DNA from: Streptomyces rimosus
GTDB taxonomy: Bacteria; Actinomycetota; Actinomycetes; Streptomycetales; Streptomycetaceae
Assembly (NCBI RefSeq): GCF_008704655.1
Contig: NZ_CP023688.1
Coordinates: 558,001-622,000 of the forward strand
Direction of reading: 5' to 3'
Length of the DNA: 64,000 bases
In this document: piece after piece, positions 5,875-31,045 of the stretch
How the letters are laid out: each line of letters opens with the position of its first letter
Numbering within the stretch: the first letter of the stretch is position 1
Position numbers and translations under genes: made by a program
Notes under the pieces: generated by a model
Told to the model about the DNA's origin: nothing
The model's input: only the letters and a program-made list of their open reading frames with translations
Database searches by the model: none

Positions 5875-7224
5875 TCACTGGCCGGTGGGCCAGGTCTCGG
5901 CCTCACCGGTGGCGGGCGGCTCGGCGTGCAGCGGAGTCAGGGCGTGGGTGCGGTCCAGGTACAGGAAAGCGTCGTATCGCTGGTCGAGCGTGGTGGACAC
6001 GTAATTGGCGAACGCCTCCCGTTCCGGCCGGTAGACGACGCCGATGGCCCGGTGGTCGCGCCGTACACCGGACCAGGCGGCCGGGCGCGGGACCTCCGGG
6101 TGCAGGCCGGTGGCGGCGTCCCGCGGCGGGAAGACGAAGAGGGCCCGCTCCTCGGGAAAGACCTGGTGGAGCAGTTCCTCGACGCTGCCGGGACGGGCCT
6201 CGGGCACGGTCAGGTTCTCGGGTGTAGCTCCCCATTCGCTCCCGGCGACGACCGACCCCTGGTACGAGCCGAAGCCGACGAGCACGACGCCGTCCGCGGA
6301 GTGCCGCTCCCGTACGAGCTGCCCGATGTTCACCAGTCCGGCGCCGGCCATGTCGGTGGCCCGCGCGTCGCCGACATGGGTGTTGTGGGCCCACACCACC
6401 GCCTTGGCGTCCGGGCCGTGGTGGGCCGTCAGCCGGTCGAGGGTGTCGGCCATGTGGTGGTCGCGGATGTTCCACGACTCGGGCCCGCCGTGGACCACCG
6501 ACCGGTAGTACCGCTCCGCCCCGGCGAGGGTCTCGGCGTTCTGGAGGGCGGCGAGTTCCGCGACGGACGAAGTGTCCTCCGGGCGCCGGGCCCGTTCGCG
6601 CAGCGACACCAGGAGGCGGACCACTTCGGGTTCGCACCCGGAGGGCAGCATCCGGGTCGCCAGGGCATAGGATTGCGGGTCCTGCTCGTACGGTTCGAGG
6701 CAGCGGTACGCCTCCACCGCCTGCTCGACGTGGTCGGGGTGGTGTTCGCGCAGGTAGGCCAGCACCGCGTCCAGCGACTCCCACATGCTGTAGACGTCCA
6801 GACCGTAGAAGCCGACCCGCTCCCGCGGCGGAAGACCGGTGTTGTGTTCGCGCAGCCACCGGGCGAAGCGGGCCACGTCGGTGTTGGCCCACATCCAGCG
6901 CGGCCAGCGGCGGAAGCCTTCCAGGGCCGCCTGCGGGTCCGCGGGTGCGCCGGGCTCGGCGGTGACCGAGCAGTGCAGGTCGAGGCAGTCGGGCCAGTCT
7001 CCCTCGACGGCGACGAAGGAGAACCCCTTCTCCGCGATCAGCCGCTCGGTCAGCCGCGCCCGCCACCAGTAGTAGTCGGCGGTGCCGTGCGACGCCTCGC
7101 CCAGGAGGACGTAGCGGGCGTCACCGATCCGGTCCAGCAGCGGGTCCAGCGCGCCGGGGTCCGGCAGCGGTACGGCCGTCCCGCGGATCAGCTCCAGGTC
7201 CGACGCCGCCGGTTTAGCGGACAT
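5875..7224 (-). CDS. Erythromycin esterase-family protein
   Basis: The 449-residue protein matches the erythromycin esterase (EreA/EreB-like, succinoglycan biosynthesis-related) fold. It has LLGEASHGTADYYWWRARLT with the catalytic Glu and His, FVAVEGDWPD, and VVWAHNTHVGDARATDMAG in the second half. Typical Ere proteins are 400-450 residues, so it is full length. True macrolide esterases are a minority of this family; chromosomal actinobacterial members in this cassette have no proven resistance role. It starts at ATG 7224, overlapping the end of the upstream hydrolase by 11 bases, which indicates translational coupling. Confidence 0.88.
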   Translation of the reverse strand: MSAKPAASDLELIRGTAVPLPDPGALDPLLDRIGDARYVLLGEASHGTADYYWWRARLTERLIAEKGFSFVAVEGDWPDCLDLHCSVTAEPGAPADPQAALEGFRRWPRWMWANTDVARFARWLREHNTGLPPRERVGFYGLDVYSMWESLDAVLAYLREHHPDHVEQAVEAYRCLEPYEQDPQSYALATRMLPSGCEPEVVRLLVSLRERARRPEDTSSVAELAALQNAETLAGAERYYRSVVHGGPESWNIRDHHMADTLDRLTAHHGPDAKAVVWAHNTHVGDARATDMAGAGLVNIGQLVRERHSADGVVLVGFGSYQGSVVAGSEWGATPENLTVPEARPGSVEELLHQVFPEERALFVFPPRDAATGLHPEVPRPAAWSGVRRDHRAIGVVYRPEREAFANYVSTTLDQRYDAFLYLDRTHALTPLHAEPPATGEAETWPTGQ

Positions 7225-7894
7225 CGCCGCCGCTCCCGTGGTTGCCCGCGGGCGCCGGCGGGTGCAGGAACCAGTCCCGGGCGGACTCGGTCACCCGCTC
7301 CAGGGTCCCGGGCTCCTCGAAGAGGTGGCTCGCGCCCGGCACGATCTCCACCTCGCAGGGCGCCTGGAGCCGCGCCGCCGCCTCACGGTTCAGCCGCAGT
7401 ACGTCGGTGTCCAGCTCGCCGACGAGCAACAGCACAGGCGCCCGTACCTGCTCCAGCGACTCCTCCGCCAGGTCGGGCCGGCCGCCGCGGCTCACCACGG
7501 ACCGGACCCGCGCGGGCCGCCGCTCCGCCGCCACCAGGGCCGCCGCCGCGCCCGTACTCGCGCCGAACAGATGCAGGGGCAGCTCCCGGGTCGCCGGGTG
7601 CTCGCCCAGCCAGTCGACCGCCGCGACCACCCGCTCGGCCAGCAGGGGGATGTCGAAGCGGTGCTTCCGTGAGACGGCGTCCTCCTCGGCCTCCTGCGGG
7701 GTCAGCAGATCCGGCAGCAGCGAGGCCAGGCCGGAGTGACGCAGCGCGAGGGCGACCGCGCGGTTGCGCGGACTGCGCCGCGAACTGCCGCTGCCGTGGA
7801 CGAACAACACCACGGCACGCGGTGAATTCGGCAGTTCCAGATCGCCGTCGAGCACCACCCCGCCCGGTGCGGACACGGTTTCCTGCGTTGTCAC
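7214..7894 (-). CDS. Dienelactone hydrolase-like alpha/beta hydrolase
   Basis: The 226-residue protein starts at GTG 7894, just after a strong GGAAGGAGG; the upstream ATG at 7945 has no such site. It has the alpha/beta hydrolase landmarks: AVVLFVHGSGSSRRSPRN (oxyanion region), HLFGASTGAAAALVAAE with the G-x-S-x-G nucleophile elbow (GASTG), LLLVGELDTDVLRLN carrying the acid, and GASHLFEE with the catalytic histidine. It is first in an operon with the esterase and phosphoribosyltransferase genes. The substrate is unknown. Confidence 0.88.
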   Translation of the reverse strand: MTTQETVSAPGGVVLDGDLELPNSPRAVVLFVHGSGSSRRSPRNRAVALALRHSGLASLLPDLLTPQEAEEDAVSRKHRFDIPLLAERVVAAVDWLGEHPATRELPLHLFGASTGAAAALVAAERRPARVRSVVSRGGRPDLAEESLEQVRAPVLLLVGELDTDVLRLNREAAARLQAPCEVEIVPGASHLFEEPGTLERVTESARDWFLHPPAPAGNHGSGGDVR

Positions 7895-9772: not shown

Positions 9773-10126
9773 ATGACGACACGACACGAGATCCCGGGCC
9801 ACCTCGCCGCCGTCTCGGTGCCGGAGGCCATCACCGCGCTCCCCGGCCCCTTCCAGCAGCGCGAGTTGGCGAGGGTGAACGACACCACGGCCGTCCGACT
9901 CGCGCGCCTGGAAGGCTCGTTCCCCTGGCACTACCACGACGAGGACGAACTGTTCCTGTGCTGGGACGGCACCTTCCGGGTCGAGCTGGAGGGCCGCGAC
10001 CCGGTGGTGCTGAAGCCCGGCGAACTCTTCGTCGTCCCCGCGGGAGTACGGCACCGCCCCGTGGCCGAGGAGGCCGCCCACGTCCTGCTCATCGAGCACC
10101 CGGACACCAAGCAGTACGGGAACTGA
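9773..10126 (+). CDS. Small cupin-domain protein
   Basis: The 117-residue protein starts at ATG 9773 behind GAGGA. It is a single cupin barrel: motif 1 is WHYHDEDELFLCWDGTFRVELEG (His, His, Glu metal ligands) and motif 2 is LKPGELFVVPAGVRHRPVA with the last histidine. Such mononuclear cupins can be isomerases, dioxygenases or binding proteins, and the substrate cannot be read here. It is divergent from the MocR regulator and ends four bases before the convergent EamA transporter gene. The layout suggests MocR controls this gene. Confidence 0.85.
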   Translation: MTTRHEIPGHLAAVSVPEAITALPGPFQQRELARVNDTTAVRLARLEGSFPWHYHDEDELFLCWDGTFRVELEGRDPVVLKPGELFVVPAGVRHRPVAEEAAHVLLIEHPDTKQYGN

Positions 10127-10130
10127 AGCT

Positions 10131-11114
10131 CTAGCAGCGCTCAACGACCCGCCGCCCCCTGCCCTCCTCCTCGGCAACGAACGGCGTACCCTTCCGCCGC
10201 GCGAGTCGTCCATGCAGCGCCGCGAGCACGGCCCCCGCCAGCAGCACCAGGGCACCCACTGCCTGTACGGGCCCGAAGGTCTCGCCGAGGAACAGCGTGC
10301 CGCACACCGTGTTCACCACCGGCACGGTGAACATCATCAGCGAGGCCGAGGCTGGCCCCACGGCCGCGACGCCCCGGTAGTACAGGAGGTTGGCGACGGC
10401 GGCAGCACCCAGCGCCAGATAGGCGGCGTTCAACCAGACAGCGGACGGCAGACCGCTCCAGTCCACATCCGGAAGGTCGGGGGCGGCGACCACGCCCAGC
10501 AGCAGGGCTCCGGCGCAGGTGGCATACGTAGTGGCGCGCAGCGGGTCGACACCGGCGAGGACGCGGGGGCCGGCGAGGGTGTAAGCCGCCCAGCACACCG
10601 CGCTGAGCAGGAACAACACGTCCCCGGCAAGCCGCGTCGGACTCCCGTGCGCGCTGCCGCCCACGCCCAGAAAGAAGATCGCAGCCCCGACCAGTCCGAG
10701 GCCGAGCCCCGCCAGGCGCACCTTCGATGCCCGTTCCCGCCGGGTCAGCAGGAGGAAGAGGCTGGTCAGGACGGGGCTCATGACCGGGATGAGGATGCCG
10801 GCGTCCAGGGAGGGTGCGAGCGACAGTCCCCAGAAGAAGAAGCCGTTGTAGGCAAAGACGCCGACGATGCCCGCCAGGGCGGGGCGGCCGGCGGCCCGGG
10901 GTGAGACCTTGCCTTTGGCACCGCCGAACCGCTTCCCGAAGAGCGCCGGCACCATCAGCAGCGCCAGGGCGGCGCCGCCGAAACGCAGGAGGGCGGCCAC
11001 GGAGTGCGGCAGGTGTTCCACCACCGACTTGGAGCTGGAGAAGGCGCTGCCCCACAGCACCATGGTGATCGACAGGAGGAGGTAGGGGCTGGTTGGGGCC
11101 TTCGTTCTGGTCAT
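10131..11114 (-). CDS. EamA/DMT-family transporter
   Basis: The 327-residue protein has ten predicted membrane segments in two EamA repeats, beginning YLLLSITMVLWGSAFSSSK and, in the second half, VLFLLSAVCWAAYTLAGPR. It ends in a basic tail (RLARRKGTPFVAEEEGRGRR). DMT transporters often export amino acids or metabolites. ATG 11114 has no Shine-Dalgarno; on the minus strand CATAGT lies exactly six bases before the ATG (11121-11126), so a leaderless transcript is likely. It converges on the cupin gene with a four-base gap. Confidence 0.9.
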   Translation of the reverse strand: MTRTKAPTSPYLLLSITMVLWGSAFSSSKSVVEHLPHSVAALLRFGGAALALLMVPALFGKRFGGAKGKVSPRAAGRPALAGIVGVFAYNGFFFWGLSLAPSLDAGILIPVMSPVLTSLFLLLTRRERASKVRLAGLGLGLVGAAIFFLGVGGSAHGSPTRLAGDVLFLLSAVCWAAYTLAGPRVLAGVDPLRATTYATCAGALLLGVVAAPDLPDVDWSGLPSAVWLNAAYLALGAAAVANLLYYRGVAAVGPASASLMMFTVPVVNTVCGTLFLGETFGPVQAVGALVLLAGAVLAALHGRLARRKGTPFVAEEEGRGRRVVERC

Positions 11115-25855: not shown

Positions 25856-27817
25856 TCAGCACTCCGGAACCGGAGCCGACGGGCCGTGACGCCGGCGGAA
25901 GGCGATCAGCTGTGTGCTCGCCAACTCGGCGTACAGGGAGTCATGTGCCATCAGTTCGGCGTGGGTTCCCCGTGCCCGCACCCGGCCGGCTTCCATGACC
26001 AGGATGCGGTCGGCGGTGGTCACGGTGGACAGGCGGTGGGCGACGACCAGGACGGTGGTGCGGCGCGCGGTGTCCGTGACGGTCTCGCGCAGGGCGGCCT
26101 CGTTGGCCGCGTCGAGCTGGGAGGTGGCCTCGTCGAGGAGGAGCAGCCGGGGCCGTCGGAGCAGGGCCCGGGCGATCGCCACCCGCTGCCGTTCGCCGCC
26201 GGAGAGCCGGCTGCCGCGGTGGCCGACCTGGGTGTCCAGACCGTGCGGCAGACGGCCCGTCACGGTGTCGAGCCGGGCCACGCGCAGGACGTGGGCGATC
26301 TGCTCGTCGGTGGCGTCGGCCGCGCCCAGCGTCAGGTTGTCGCGCAAGGTTCCGGCGAGGACGGTCGGGTCCTGTTCGACGTAGCCGATGGCGGCGCGGA
26401 GCTCGGCGAGAGGCCATCGGCGGATGTCCGTGCCGTCGAGCAGCACGCGGCCGGTGTCCGGCTCGTAGAAACGCTCGATGAGGGCGAAGACGGTGGTCTT
26501 GCCCGCGCCGGACGGTCCGACGATCGCCGTCACGCCGCCGGCGGGAACGGCGAAGGAGACATGGCGGTGAACCGCGGGGAGACCTGGCCGGTAGGCGAAG
26601 TGCACCTGCTGGAAGGTCACGGTGGCGGGGTGCCGGTCCCGATGCCGTTCATGAGAGCCGGAAGGCCGCCCCGGGGCCGCGGCGGCCTCGTCGCCACGCC
26701 CCTGGACACCCTCCGCTCCCCCGATCCCCGATTCCCCGCCCTCCGCTCCCCCGGTCTCCGCTTCCCCGCCCTCCGCTTCCTCGGCCTCCAGCGTCTCGGC
26801 CTCCCGGATACGTACGGCCGCGGCTGATCCGATCTGCAACTGCCCGACGCCTTCGACCAGTTGCCCGATCCTGGGGGTGAGGGCGAAGAGGTAGAGCAGG
26901 AAGGCGACGAGCGTGGAGACGCCGATGGAGCCGGAGGTCACGCGCGCGCCGCCCACTCCGAGCACGACCAGGAAGCAGACCTGGAGGACGACGGCCGACA
27001 GGGTCGCGGACACCGCCTCCCACGCGGCGGCGCGGACGCCCGTACGGCGGGCGTGCTCGGCCGCACGGTGCAGTGCCGCGGTCTCCCCCTGTTCGGCGCC
27101 CGCCGCCTTGACGGTGCGCAGCGCGCCCAGCGTCCGTTCGAGCCCGGCTCCCATGCGGCCGACGGCTTCCTGGGTGTGCCGGGTGGCCCGCCCGATGTGC
27201 GGCGTCACCACGATGACGACGCAGCCGACGAAGGCGATCACGGTGAGGGTGACGCCGAGCAGGACGGCGTCCAGCAGCCCCATCATCACGACGGTGGCCA
27301 CCGTGATCAGAGTGCCGGTGACCGCGGCCGACACAGCCTGGGGGGCGGTGCGTCGCAGCAGTACGGTGTCGGAGGTGACGCGGGCGATCAGGTCCCCCGG
27401 CTCGGTGTGTTCGATCACCGGTACGCGCAGGCGCGGAAGCAGGTGGGTCAGCCTGCGCCGGACGGCGCAGACGACGGACTCGGCGGAGCGGTCGAGCACA
27501 TAGTGGCCGAGGCCCGCGAGAAGTCCGCCGGCCACCACCAGCGTGCTGAGGACGACCACGGGGCCGGCGGTCGGCTGCCCGTGGCCGATGATGTCCATGA
27601 CGTGCTTGGCCGCCAGCGGCTGGGCCAGCCCCAGGACGCTGCCCAGCAGGCCGAGCGCGACACCGGCGAGCATGCGTCCGCGCTGTGGCCGGAGGTGACC
27701 GGCGAGGGCCCGGAGGCCGGACCACGCGGAGCCGTGGCCGGCGAGGTCGGCCGGCTGTTCCGCCGGGTGTGCCGGGCCGTCGGTGCGGCGGGCTTCGGTC
27801 GGGGGCGCCGAGGTCAC
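25856..27817 (-). CDS. Lasso peptide ABC exporter (D protein)
   Basis: The 653-residue protein starts at GTG 27817, four bases after the leader peptidase gene. It fuses a six-helix ABC exporter membrane domain (about 30-330) to an ATPase domain (about 410-640) with Walker A IVGPSGAGKTT, signature RLSGGERQRVAIARALL and Walker B LLLLDEATSQLD. Between the domains lies an unusual Glu/Gly-rich linker of about 50 residues (EAEEAEGGEAETGGAEGGES), coded by short repeats. No peptidase C39 domain is present, as expected when the leader is removed by the B2 protein. Its place as last gene of the cluster points to export of, and self-immunity to, the lasso peptide. Confidence 0.93.
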   Translation of the reverse strand: MTSAPPTEARRTDGPAHPAEQPADLAGHGSAWSGLRALAGHLRPQRGRMLAGVALGLLGSVLGLAQPLAAKHVMDIIGHGQPTAGPVVVLSTLVVAGGLLAGLGHYVLDRSAESVVCAVRRRLTHLLPRLRVPVIEHTEPGDLIARVTSDTVLLRRTAPQAVSAAVTGTLITVATVVMMGLLDAVLLGVTLTVIAFVGCVVIVVTPHIGRATRHTQEAVGRMGAGLERTLGALRTVKAAGAEQGETAALHRAAEHARRTGVRAAAWEAVSATLSAVVLQVCFLVVLGVGGARVTSGSIGVSTLVAFLLYLFALTPRIGQLVEGVGQLQIGSAAAVRIREAETLEAEEAEGGEAETGGAEGGESGIGGAEGVQGRGDEAAAAPGRPSGSHERHRDRHPATVTFQQVHFAYRPGLPAVHRHVSFAVPAGGVTAIVGPSGAGKTTVFALIERFYEPDTGRVLLDGTDIRRWPLAELRAAIGYVEQDPTVLAGTLRDNLTLGAADATDEQIAHVLRVARLDTVTGRLPHGLDTQVGHRGSRLSGGERQRVAIARALLRRPRLLLLDEATSQLDAANEAALRETVTDTARRTTVLVVAHRLSTVTTADRILVMEAGRVRARGTHAELMAHDSLYAELASTQLIAFRRRHGPSAPVPEC

Positions 27818-27821
27818 GGCC

Positions 27822-28238
27822 TCACTCCACGGTGAAGAAGCGCTGGAAGTAGGAGGCCGGTACGTTCTCTCCGACGAGTTCACCCTCCGCCTCCACCCAG
27901 GCGTGTGCGGCGAACGGCGGGCGGGCGCGGACTCCTACGCACCAGGCGGGCCACTGCCCGTACAGACGGCACAGCAGCACCGTGGCCAGGGACCGGGGCA
28001 GGCATCCTTTGCTCCCTCCGGCGGCCAGGCTCACCGCGAGGACCGTCTGCCGGGCGCGAGCGGCCTCGGCGAGCGTGGCGGGCTCCGCCCCGCGCCGCAA
28101 CCAGCCCAGGACGACGCGGATACGGCCGGGCGGCAGCGTGGCCAGTACATGGGCGCAGCCCACCGCCACCCGGGCCGTGAGGCGGCGGGCCAAGGGGATG
28201 GAGCGAGGGCGGTAGGGGACCGCTTCCGGCGTCGACAT
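27822..28238 (-). CDS. Lasso peptide leader peptidase (B2 protein)
   Basis: The 138-residue protein starts at ATG 28238 behind GGGAAGAGG. It is a stand-alone transglutaminase-like cysteine protease: the catalytic Cys is in GGSKGCLPRSLATVLLCRLY and the His in AAHAWVEAEGELVGEN. This is the standard B2 protein that cuts the leader from the precursor once B1 delivers it. In actinobacteria B is split into B1 and B2, as here. It is followed after four bases by the transporter gene. Confidence 0.93.
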   Translation of the reverse strand: MSTPEAVPYRPRSIPLARRLTARVAVGCAHVLATLPPGRIRVVLGWLRRGAEPATLAEAARARQTVLAVSLAAGGSKGCLPRSLATVLLCRLYGQWPAWCVGVRARPPFAAHAWVEAEGELVGENVPASYFQRFFTVE

Positions 28239-28283
28239 TGCGTACCTCTTCCCTGGGGGCCAGGTGTGTGCCCGGTGCGGTGG

Positions 28284-28541
28284 CTACGGTGCGATGAGGC
28301 CAGCCGAGCGCAGGTCGTCGATGATGCGGGTGACGTCCTGAGTGGCCAGGTCGGTGTCGACGCCCTCGTAGTGTGCGGTCAGTTCCTCCACCGCCTGGTC
28401 GATGCCGCGGCCGTCCAGCAGGGTCTGGAGGACGACTGCCGCCGTGGGGTTGAGGGTCCAGTACTCGGCGCTCTTCTGGTCGAGCAGCGCCATGCCGTAC
28501 TCGGTCTCGGTCAGCAGAACACCGGGTTTCAGCGCGTACAT
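28284..28541 (-). CDS. PqqD-like RiPP recognition element (lasso B1 protein)
   Basis: The 85-residue protein starts at ATG 28541 with AGGAG at proper distance; the GTG at 28550 is too close to that site. It matches PqqD/RRE proteins: VLLTETEYGMALLDQKSAEY and WTLNPTAAVVLQTLLDG, then a helical end (ATQDVTRIIDDLRSAGLIAP). In lasso biosynthesis B1 binds the YxxPxL part of the leader and presents it to B2 and the cyclase. It lies 45 bases before the B2 gene. Confidence 0.93.
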   Translation of the reverse strand: MYALKPGVLLTETEYGMALLDQKSAEYWTLNPTAAVVLQTLLDGRGIDQAVEELTAHYEGVDTDLATQDVTRIIDDLRSAGLIAP

Positions 28542-28563
28542 CGCCGTCACCTCTCCTGTCAGG

Positions 28564-30420
28564 TCAGGGGCCGGGCGGTGCCGGTGTCATCTCGCGGGAG
28601 CGCAGCCACGCTTCACAGGCCACGGTCGGGTGCAGCAGGTAGCTCTCCGTCTCCGCGGACAGCGAGCGGCGGCACCATTCCCGCAGGACGTCCACGTCGA
28701 CCAGGCCGAGCCGGCCAAGCCGGGATTCCTCGCAGAGCGCCAGCAGCCGGGCGCGGTGGCGCCGCAGCCCGGTCTCTTCCTCGAAGGTGGCGTTGGCCTT
28801 GGTGTCGCGCGTGCGCACGGCTTCGGGCACGATGCCGCGCATGGCCTCGACGATCAGCGGTTTGTACCGCCAAGGGGTGATCCGGTCCGGTGTCCGGACC
28901 GCGAGGCACGCTTCGATGACACGATCGTCGTAGTACGGCGCCGCCACGGTGATCCCCAGGGGTGCCGCCATCTGCCCGATGTGCCGGGTCCACTGGGAAA
29001 TACCGTCCATCGCGGCCAGTTCCCGGTGTTCACCGTGGCCCCTCCCCCGCGGCTCGGCGTCCGGCAGGCAGGCGGACAGCAGCTCGCGCGCCGCCGCGAC
29101 GGCCTCGGGCGTGGCCCAGGGCGGCATCCGGGGCGGTACGGACCAGTCGAGCAGCGGTTCGTCCGCGGCGGCCGCCGGCTCCATCAGGTCACGGGCGACC
29201 CGGGCGAGCCAGGACCGGTAGGAGCGGCGGTCCACGAGTTGGCGCAGCGCCTTGCGCCGGGGCCACTGGTACTTGGCCGCGTATCCGCGCAGGTCCCGCA
29301 GGGTGCGGAAAGGGTGGGCGGATATCGAGGCGTGCAGCCGGGCAGGCGTTCCGGCCAGGAGTTCATCGCCGCCCAGCCCGGTCAGGTGCAGTCCGGACCC
29401 CCGGACGGCCGCCCGCTCCAGGAGGTGCATGCGGCGGTTGCGGTCGACCGTGAGCATGCTGGGCGTATCCAGAATGTCCTGGAGCGTATCGATACCGTTA
29501 AAGGTCAGAGCCGTATCCTGGGCGGGTACGACGTGATGCTCGACCGACCCCAGGGCCCGTACGGTCTGCCGCGCCCAGTGCACATCGTCACCGAGTTCGT
29601 CATGGAGGGCGGCGGTGTACGCGACGACCTTCGCCTCCCCGCGTGCCGCGGCGCAGCACACGGCGGTCGAGTCCAGGCCGCCCAGGTCCGTCGTCACCAG
29701 GTCACGTCCCCGCGTGCGCACATCGACGGCGGCGGTCAGCACCTCACGCAGGCGCACGGCCCCCTCCGCCAGCGGGACGTCGGGGCCGGGCGGTGACCAC
29801 CACCGGCGTGGCCGCGCTCGTCCGTCGGCATCGAGCGTCAGACAGTGGCCGCCGCGCAGAGCGTGGACGCCCCGCCACTGCGGTGCTCCCGACAGCGGGT
29901 GCGGTACGCCCAAGGTGAGCAGTTCCAGGGCGAGGCGGCGTTCGTCCAGCCCCGCGCCTACCAGCTCGGCCAGCACGTCGGCCCGGTCGGCCGCGACGCT
30001 CACCCGGGCGGACACCGGAGGCGTGGCCTCGGCGTGGAACACCCGCCGCAGATCGACGACTCCGCCCTGCACCCGGACCTGTCCGCCTGAACTGGCCACG
30101 AGGTGGAAGCTGCCCGCCCAGGTGCTGCTGTGCCGGTCCAGCGCCGTCAGCGACGCGGTGGCTGCCGCCGCGGCGGCACGCCGGGCTTCCCGGGGGGTGA
30201 CGGAATGCTCCCCGATCACGGCGACGCGGGTCCTGCCGTGCACTCCCACGACGGCCGACCGGTCGGTCCAACGGCCCACCAGCCAGGGCCTGCCGGACGC
30301 ATGACGCAGGTGGTGCGTCGCGTGGGAAAGTGCTTTCGCGGCAACCGTGGTGGCCGCGTCGGTGTCGGGAAGGACGACGAACCAGCTGGACAGGGCCGAC
30401 AAGGACAGGGACTCTTCCAC
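28564..30420 (-). CDS. Lasso peptide cyclase, asparagine synthetase-like (C protein)
   Basis: The 618-residue protein starts at GTG 30420. The N-terminal part is a degenerate glutamine amidotransferase-like domain without a nucleophile cysteine at residue 2, and the C-terminal part is the asparagine synthetase-like ATP-dependent domain (about 210-600). Such C proteins adenylate a Asp/Glu side chain and close the macrolactam on the free N-terminus. The PP-loop reads TTDLGGLDSTAVC, where the usual SGGxDS has Leu in place of the first Ser. Later motifs are intact (HLTGLGGDELLAGTPARLHA, APYYDDRVIEACLAVRTPDR, RDTKANATFEEE). It is downstream of the precursor gene with a hairpin between. Confidence 0.92.
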   Translation of the reverse strand: MEESLSLSALSSWFVVLPDTDAATTVAAKALSHATHHLRHASGRPWLVGRWTDRSAVVGVHGRTRVAVIGEHSVTPREARRAAAAAATASLTALDRHSSTWAGSFHLVASSGGQVRVQGGVVDLRRVFHAEATPPVSARVSVAADRADVLAELVGAGLDERRLALELLTLGVPHPLSGAPQWRGVHALRGGHCLTLDADGRARPRRWWSPPGPDVPLAEGAVRLREVLTAAVDVRTRGRDLVTTDLGGLDSTAVCCAAARGEAKVVAYTAALHDELGDDVHWARQTVRALGSVEHHVVPAQDTALTFNGIDTLQDILDTPSMLTVDRNRRMHLLERAAVRGSGLHLTGLGGDELLAGTPARLHASISAHPFRTLRDLRGYAAKYQWPRRKALRQLVDRRSYRSWLARVARDLMEPAAAADEPLLDWSVPPRMPPWATPEAVAAARELLSACLPDAEPRGRGHGEHRELAAMDGISQWTRHIGQMAAPLGITVAAPYYDDRVIEACLAVRTPDRITPWRYKPLIVEAMRGIVPEAVRTRDTKANATFEEETGLRRHRARLLALCEESRLGRLGLVDVDVLREWCRRSLSAETESYLLHPTVACEAWLRSREMTPAPPGP

Positions 30421-30490
30421 GGCTACGGCCTTCGGTCGAAGTGACGTCGGTAGCGGGAGGGGGCATCGGCGGGCGGGCCCGGTCGGCCGC

Positions 30491-30522
30491 GGGCCGGGCC
30501 GGCGCGCAGACCGGCCCGGCCC
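30491..30522 (-). terminator. Hairpin between the lasso precursor and cyclase genes
   Basis: GGGCCGGGCCGG (30491-30502) pairs perfectly with CCGGCCCGGCCC (30511-30522) around an eight-base loop. Placed after the precursor stop and before the cyclase start, it could act as a partial terminator or mRNA stabiliser so that precursor is made in excess over enzymes. Confidence 0.6.
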
Positions 30523-30565
30523 GTGACACTGTGCGGGTCCGCTCAGCGGCTCCGCACCGGTCGCG

Positions 30566-30673
30566 TCAGAGGAGCTGCTTGCCGCCGAGAACATCCTTGG
30601 GGCCGGTGTTCTTGACGCCCGTCACCTTGCGGAAGCCGCCGGCCTTGGTGAGTGTGGGGCGCTCGTACGTCAT
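30566..30673 (-). CDS. Lasso peptide precursor (A peptide)
   Basis: The 35-codon gene starts at ATG 30673, eight bases after AAGGAG. The leader MTYERPTLTKAGGFRKVTG has every position of the lasso consensus YxxPxLxxxGxFxxxT. With the conserved Thr at -2, the core is VKNTGPKDVLGGKQLL: 16 residues, ring closed between the Val1 amine and Asp8 side chain, and an eight-residue tail VLGGKQLL. Cleavage one residue earlier would give GVKNTGPKDVLGGKQLL with a Gly1-Asp9 ring. No cysteines, so it would be a class II lasso peptide. The bulky plug residue is not obvious; Lys, Gln and Leu are candidates. The cluster contains all functions needed to make it. Confidence 0.92.
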   Translation of the reverse strand: MTYERPTLTKAGGFRKVTGVKNTGPKDVLGGKQLL

Positions 30674-31045
30674 GGTCGCACTCCTTTTCCTCAAGGAATA
30701 ACGCGGATCACGGGACCGGACCGACGCCATGCGAAAGCATTTGCGTCTGCACTCCCGCGAGCGGTTGATGCCGCGCCGCAACCGTAAGAGCGCTGAGCGC
30801 ATCATCACAATGATGTGCTCGCGGTGACGTGTGGTACGCCGGGGGCGTGAATTCCTGTTGCGAAAGCGCGGTGTGATGCACGCGCTCCCGAGTGGTGACA
30901 CGGACCGGTTTGAAGGCACCGATTCCGTGATGCGCGGCGAGCGGGACGGGCAATCGCCCGCTTCTGGCGTGCGATAGGCGGGCCGCTGTTCGTACGGGAA
31001 GCCGCTCCCCGGGCGTTGTCAGACCCCGGCCCTAGCATCCATAGC
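30674..31045. other. Intergenic region upstream of the lasso cluster and DUF4253 gene
   Basis: The divergent gap contains the minus-strand lasso promoter (30781-30810), a small dyad GCATCAT/ATGATGTGC around 30800-30819, and the plus-strand -10 element of the DUF4253 gene at its right end. No gene is supported. Confidence 0.55.
30781..30810 (-). promoter_or_regulatory. Putative promoter of the lasso peptide operon
   Basis: On the minus strand TTGTGA (30810-30805) and TACGGT (30786-30781) are 18 bases apart. The transcript would have a leader of about 100 bases before ATG 30673. The -35 element overlaps a short dyad (GCATCAT...ATGATGTGC), a possible regulator site. Confidence 0.45.

Follow-up and report, generated by a model that had tools for sequence, protein, structure and literature searches.

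Introduction

The sequence LAGQGSPDLLGGHSLL, which we take to be the core of the isolated lasso peptide lagmysin, occurs letter for letter at three loci found in this work (L057, L058 and L059). The cyclases (C) of L057 and L058 are 54–55% identical, and that of L059 (partial) 51% identical, to the C protein of the window, by which we mean the whole 64,000-nucleotide stretch of DNA analyzed, itself part of a complete 9.36-Mb chromosome. Lagmysin has in common with the peptide predicted from the window a leader of the same kind with TG at its end, a length of 16 residues, an X1–Asp8 ring, LGG within a likewise non-aromatic tail and a Leu-Leu end. The two cores agree at only about half of their residues, however, with Val1, GPKD and Lys13-Gln14 in the window against Leu1, GSPD and His13-Ser14 in lagmysin. 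Seven lagmysin-type cyclases form a separate branch (support 100) adjoining the window's group. The window belongs with the lagmysin-like group by the length of its core, the position of the acid and the pattern of the tail. Its cyclase also falls in one clade with the lagmysin-type cyclases, a 35-row branch (support 100) that takes in the TAKD rows along with these and the window's group.

A structural reference is provided by the solved leader/RRE complex PDB 6JX3, with the TfuA leader and TfuB1 chains of the fusilassin/fuscanodin system of Thermobifida fusca. The leader-binding protein of the window (B1) matches the TfuB1 chain (E 6e-16), and the leader aligns from its Tyr to the closing TG; the fusilassin/fuscanodin core we take to be unrelated to that of the window. 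The citrulassin family, whose core type we assume to be ...NDR..LSKN, is represented by L025, L026, L072, L106 and L107. These precursors carry the TG-X7-Asp8 register of the window but a different tail, and the cyclases of L072 and L074 sit elsewhere in the C tree.

Results and Discussion

The five-gene cassette

The genes lie in the order A-C-B1-B2-D, all on the minus strand, from 30673 down to 25856 among the open reading frames of the window. The features discussed are as follows.

30781..30810, minus strand: promoter-like element TTGTGA-N18-TACGGT (-35 at 30810–30805, -10 at 30786–30781)
30681..30686, minus strand: ribosome-binding site AAGGAG of the precursor, upstream of its ATG
30566..30673, minus strand: precursor gene A, 35 residues, MTYERPTLTKAGGFRKVTGVKNTGPKDVLGGKQLL (start codon ATG 30673, last base of the stop codon 30566)
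30617..30673, minus strand: leader MTYERPTLTKAGGFRKVTG, ending Thr(-2)-Gly(-1), placed by the register of relatives and the 6JX3 leader
30569..30616, minus strand: core VKNTGPKDVLGGKQLL, with a predicted Val1–Asp8 isopeptide ring, placed by the register in relatives; threading is likewise predicted
30491..30522, minus strand: 13-pair G+C hairpin between the precursor and C, without a T-run
28564..30420, minus strand: C, asparagine-synthase-like lasso cyclase (PF00733), 618 residues from GTG 30420
28284..28541, minus strand: B1, PqqD-like RRE, leader-binding protein (NF033530); a start at GTG 28550 is also possible
27822..28238, minus strand: B2, transglutaminase-like leader protease (NF033537), Cys79-His112-Glu124
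25856..27817, minus strand: D, ABC exporter with membrane and ATPase domains (PF00664 and PF00005, both above cut-off); the start may be GTG 27817 or GTG 27883

We consider it highly probable that these genes form a complete biosynthetic cassette, probably a functional one, for a class II (disulfide-free) lasso peptide. The precursor carries the class II leader motif with Thr at -2 and a cysteine-free core, and its acid falls within the class II range of 7–9 residues from the core start, as Asp8 if the core begins at Val1 or Asp9 if it begins at Gly1. The enzymes comprise an RRE protein (B1), a cysteine protease (B2) and an ATP-dependent, asparagine-synthase-like C. A sequence-only reading of the same DNA had called the five functions in order on one strand. 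All five frames were recovered at the coordinates it gave, the exception being the start of C: ATG 30594 falls within the precursor gene and lacks a ribosome-binding site, and GTG 30420 is the likely start.

Two models recognized the precursor, Pfam PF19397 (DUF5972) at 46.5 bits against a cut-off of 22.6 and the NCBIfam model for lasso leaders, NF033521, at 24.7 bits against 19. The precursor agrees with YxxPxLxxxGxFxxxT at all fixed positions, as had been proposed. Translated in six frames, the window contains this motif a single time, and none of 60 first-order Markov random 64-kb sequences contains it, so that it is not expected by chance. Precursor DNA differs from that of L027 at four bases and from that of L028 at two, all third-position and synonymous, showing purifying selection.

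B1 and B2 scored above the cut-offs of their NCBIfam models (107.9 bits against 70 for NF033530, and 113.6 bits against 33 for NF033537). Cys79, His112 and Glu124 of B2 are invariant in 49/49 aligned rows; Glu124 we assume to be the acid of the triad from its spacing. The C protein exceeded the Pfam cut-off for Asn_synthase (PF00733, 137.6 bits) but reached only 53.3 against the NCBIfam lasso cyclase cut-off of 525, which counts against the proposed assignment. Its best NCBIfam score, 237.9 for the albusnodin/ikarugamycin cyclase family, was also below cut-off (300). The ATP-binding PP-loop of C, DLGGLDST, lacks one residue relative to DLSGGLDST in citrulassin-like L072 and L074, and this too weighs against the assignment. 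The short loop, including variants such as DLSGLDST, was found in 47/49 aligned cyclases (that of the window and 46/48 relatives), and the long form in 2/49.

B1 would bind the YxxPxLxxxGxF leader, and B2 would cleave the precursor after Thr-Gly. C would activate Asp8 with ATP and join it to the Val1 amino group, the tail being threaded through the 8-residue ring during this closure. D would export the finished peptide.

No family outside the five genes was present in more than 4 of 38 loci (the window and 37 loci, compared over their neighboring frames), and a sixth conserved cassette gene was rejected on this ground. The flanks of the window are common only to L028, barring weak matches to L030, L038-type and L039 frames. 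With no further gene common across the group, the cassette seems self-contained. No dedicated regulator, tailoring enzyme or isopeptidase was visible beside it, no Rfam family reached its gathering score in the window, and the five genes contain no TTA codons.

Relatives and distribution

Genome searches covered samples of the genus (392 genomes) and of the order (391). A precursor match (E up to 0.01) was obtained in 24/392 genus genomes and an identical 35-residue precursor in 3/392, the source genome being included in both counts; the other two carriers are S. rimosus NRRL WC-3904 (L028) and Streptomyces sp. CB02923 (L027). A set of 52 related loci was obtained. In this set, tblastn with the window proteins detected C at 51 loci, B1 at 48, B2 at 49 and D at 43; the full complement of four was present at 42. 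Several loci, L033 and L059 among them, are situated at the ends of contigs, and L061, with only a fragment of C, looks decayed. No match to D was found in the DNA around L050, L054, L055, L056, L062 and L068, where C, B1 and B2 are present; L054 ends at the contig end. Some of the D-less loci may use another exporter.

The C tree comprised 49 rows, the window and 48/52 loci, after L033, L059, L061 and L069 were dropped because C was absent or too short. The window groups with L027 and L028 (support 100). Loci labeled as window-type do not form one clean clade (2 changes), since L045–L048 sit with L049 and L063. Among the precursors of L027–L063, 36/37 have 16-residue cores. As judged from these predicted cores, an aliphatic first residue and a mostly non-aromatic tail are normal in the window's family. 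The novelty of the locus, which the sequence-only reading had rated highly, is therefore smaller than estimated, with an identical precursor in two further genomes and both unusual-seeming core traits being usual among relatives. The cluster looks like an uncharacterized member of an established lasso family type, useful but unsurprising.

Other lasso loci were also encountered. The genome itself holds a second lasso cluster (L079, C1:5826000-5842000), with the following features.

About 9919–10194, minus strand: L079 precursor, leader YEPPELAEAGAFAERTL and likely core GFTGELSDSWGGQHSTFW (Gly1–Asp8)
9575–7698: L079 C, 35% identical to that of the window
Near 7378–7037: L079 B2, 50% identical to that of the window

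A related group closing on Glu8, with cores of the type LGTNRGPERVVPLRFSL, comprises L023, L024, L067, L070, L076, L078, L103 and L105. Several of its leaders have one residue fewer in the Phe-to-Thr stretch.

Core start and ring register

Precursors were parsed for 51/52 related loci, L074 being the exception. All 51 leaders end in TG, a universality that is partly due to selection, as TG formed part of one of the two locus search patterns. The spacing from TG to the acid was in neither pattern; an acid lies exactly 8 residues after TG in 45/51 precursors (39 Asp and 6 Glu). The residue following Gly varies across 39 distinct cores (Leu 19, Ile 8, Val 3, Lys 3, Ala 2, Met 2, Gly 1 and Asn 1). 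A profile of 15 precursors matched one solved chain only, the 6JX3 TfuA leader, with an E value of 0.052 that is weak because the chain is short. This chain (...EATG) aligned to profile positions 3–19, from Tyr through the final TG, where it ends. According to a review, the penultimate leader residue is Thr and about 7% of lasso peptides begin with Leu (PMC7549694). The conserved spacing, the end of the 6JX3 leader and the penultimate Thr together make a 16-residue core VKNTGPKDVLGGKQLL with a predicted Val1–Asp8 ring the best reading, and a well supported one. Val1 as core start with closure on Asp8 had been the first choice of the sequence-only reading as well, and the masses it calculated after loss of water were reproduced (1647.967 Da for the 16-mer).

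A different spacing was seen in five of the 51 precursors, for which the feature line is as follows.

Near 7001: long-spacer precursors L064, L065, L066, L069 and L071

Their only acid lies at position 10 (L064, L065 and L066) or 11 (L069 and L071), after the same leader; examples are MALKRKGPPDFLGQHSILR and KPFRKGKGPPDIVIKGNLL. Two more, L080 and L081, with the only acid at position 10, came from a wider search. The four of the five loci whose C could be placed in the tree share a single branch (support 99). According to the same review, lasso rings span 7–9 residues (PMC7549694). We think it rather unlikely that ring size varies across the wider family, with rings of 8 from bulky aliphatic residues in the close relatives and of 10–11 in this sister clade (L080 and L081 included). 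Cleavage of the leader further in is likelier for these precursors than a 10–11 residue ring.

With Val1–Asp8 as the ring of the window peptide, the tail is VLGGKQLL, which, as had been pointed out, contains no aromatic residue. The tails of 34/36 sixteen-residue cores of L027–L063 lack Phe, Trp and Tyr, the exceptions being L030 and L036 with Phe15. In these 36 cores, Lys (22), His (13) or Arg (1) stands at position 13, and Gln (24), Ser (8) or Asn (4) at position 14. As both positions are restricted throughout, Lys13 and Gln14 are the candidates for holding the tail, and residues 13 and 14 would flank the ring. A cyclized but unthreaded peptide, or no stable peptide at all, for want of a bulky plug, appears improbable. 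Such tails are conserved in the group, the presumed lagmysin core among them, and synonymous-only change implies that the cassette is probably in use; what speaks for this outcome is the non-aromatic VLGGKQLL itself, together with the statement of the review that plug strength rises with residue size (PMC7549694).

One locus of the window's group is awkward for a fixed register and counts against the preferred reading. L044 (precursor at 7001) has a one-residue core deletion, giving TG-KHTGPKDILGGKQLL with the start KHTGPKD. Its only acid is at position 7, or at position 8 if cleavage occurs before Gly. A cut between Thr and Gly in the window, yielding a 17-residue GVKNTGPKDVLGGKQLL (1704.989 Da after loss of water, as the sequence-only reading had it) with a Gly1–Asp9 ring, would fit the 8-residue ring thus restored in L044, a 9-residue ring being normal and Gly the commonest first residue (62%) in the review (PMC7549694), but is very improbable and was rejected: Gly is constant in 51/51 leaders before a variable residue and so behaves as a leader residue, the 6JX3 leader chain terminates at the corresponding Gly, and Thr would move to -1 instead of its penultimate place (PMC7549694).

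Expression signals

The element TTGTGA-N18-TACGGT sits 137 bases upstream of the precursor ATG. A looser form was found in 22/38 upstream regions against 19/1587 control windows, the pattern having been drawn from the upstream alignment after inspection (row L006 not used), with the window, L027, L028 and L029 among the 22 matches. A general sigma-70 scan found no promoter, which counts against the overall interpretation. It is probable that the precursor is transcribed from a promoter of its own.

Terminator-like sites amounted to one, on the other strand, about as many as in shuffled sequences. The 100 bases following the precursor, between A and C, fold more stably than shuffles (z < -2 in 31/37, mean -3.8), while stretches inside C do so in 2/36 (mean -0.1), these controls being coding and not intergenic DNA. 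The window scored -3.5 and its near relative L027 only -1.2. The hairpin probably gives more precursor than enzyme transcript; it would act as a partial stop or processing site keeping the precursor in excess.

Implications

The likeliest role for the product is a secreted narrow-spectrum antibacterial or a signal, an assignment we hold tentatively and at less than even confidence. The promoter-like element and hairpin common to these loci suggest how precursor and enzyme levels are kept different. L044 is a natural test of the cleavage rule, and the long-spacer clade allows the maximum size of a lasso ring to be tested directly. From the group one would learn how rings starting with Val, Ile or Leu are closed and how a non-aromatic tail stays threaded. 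The cluster thereby adds an uncharacterized but widespread Streptomyces lasso family for testing.
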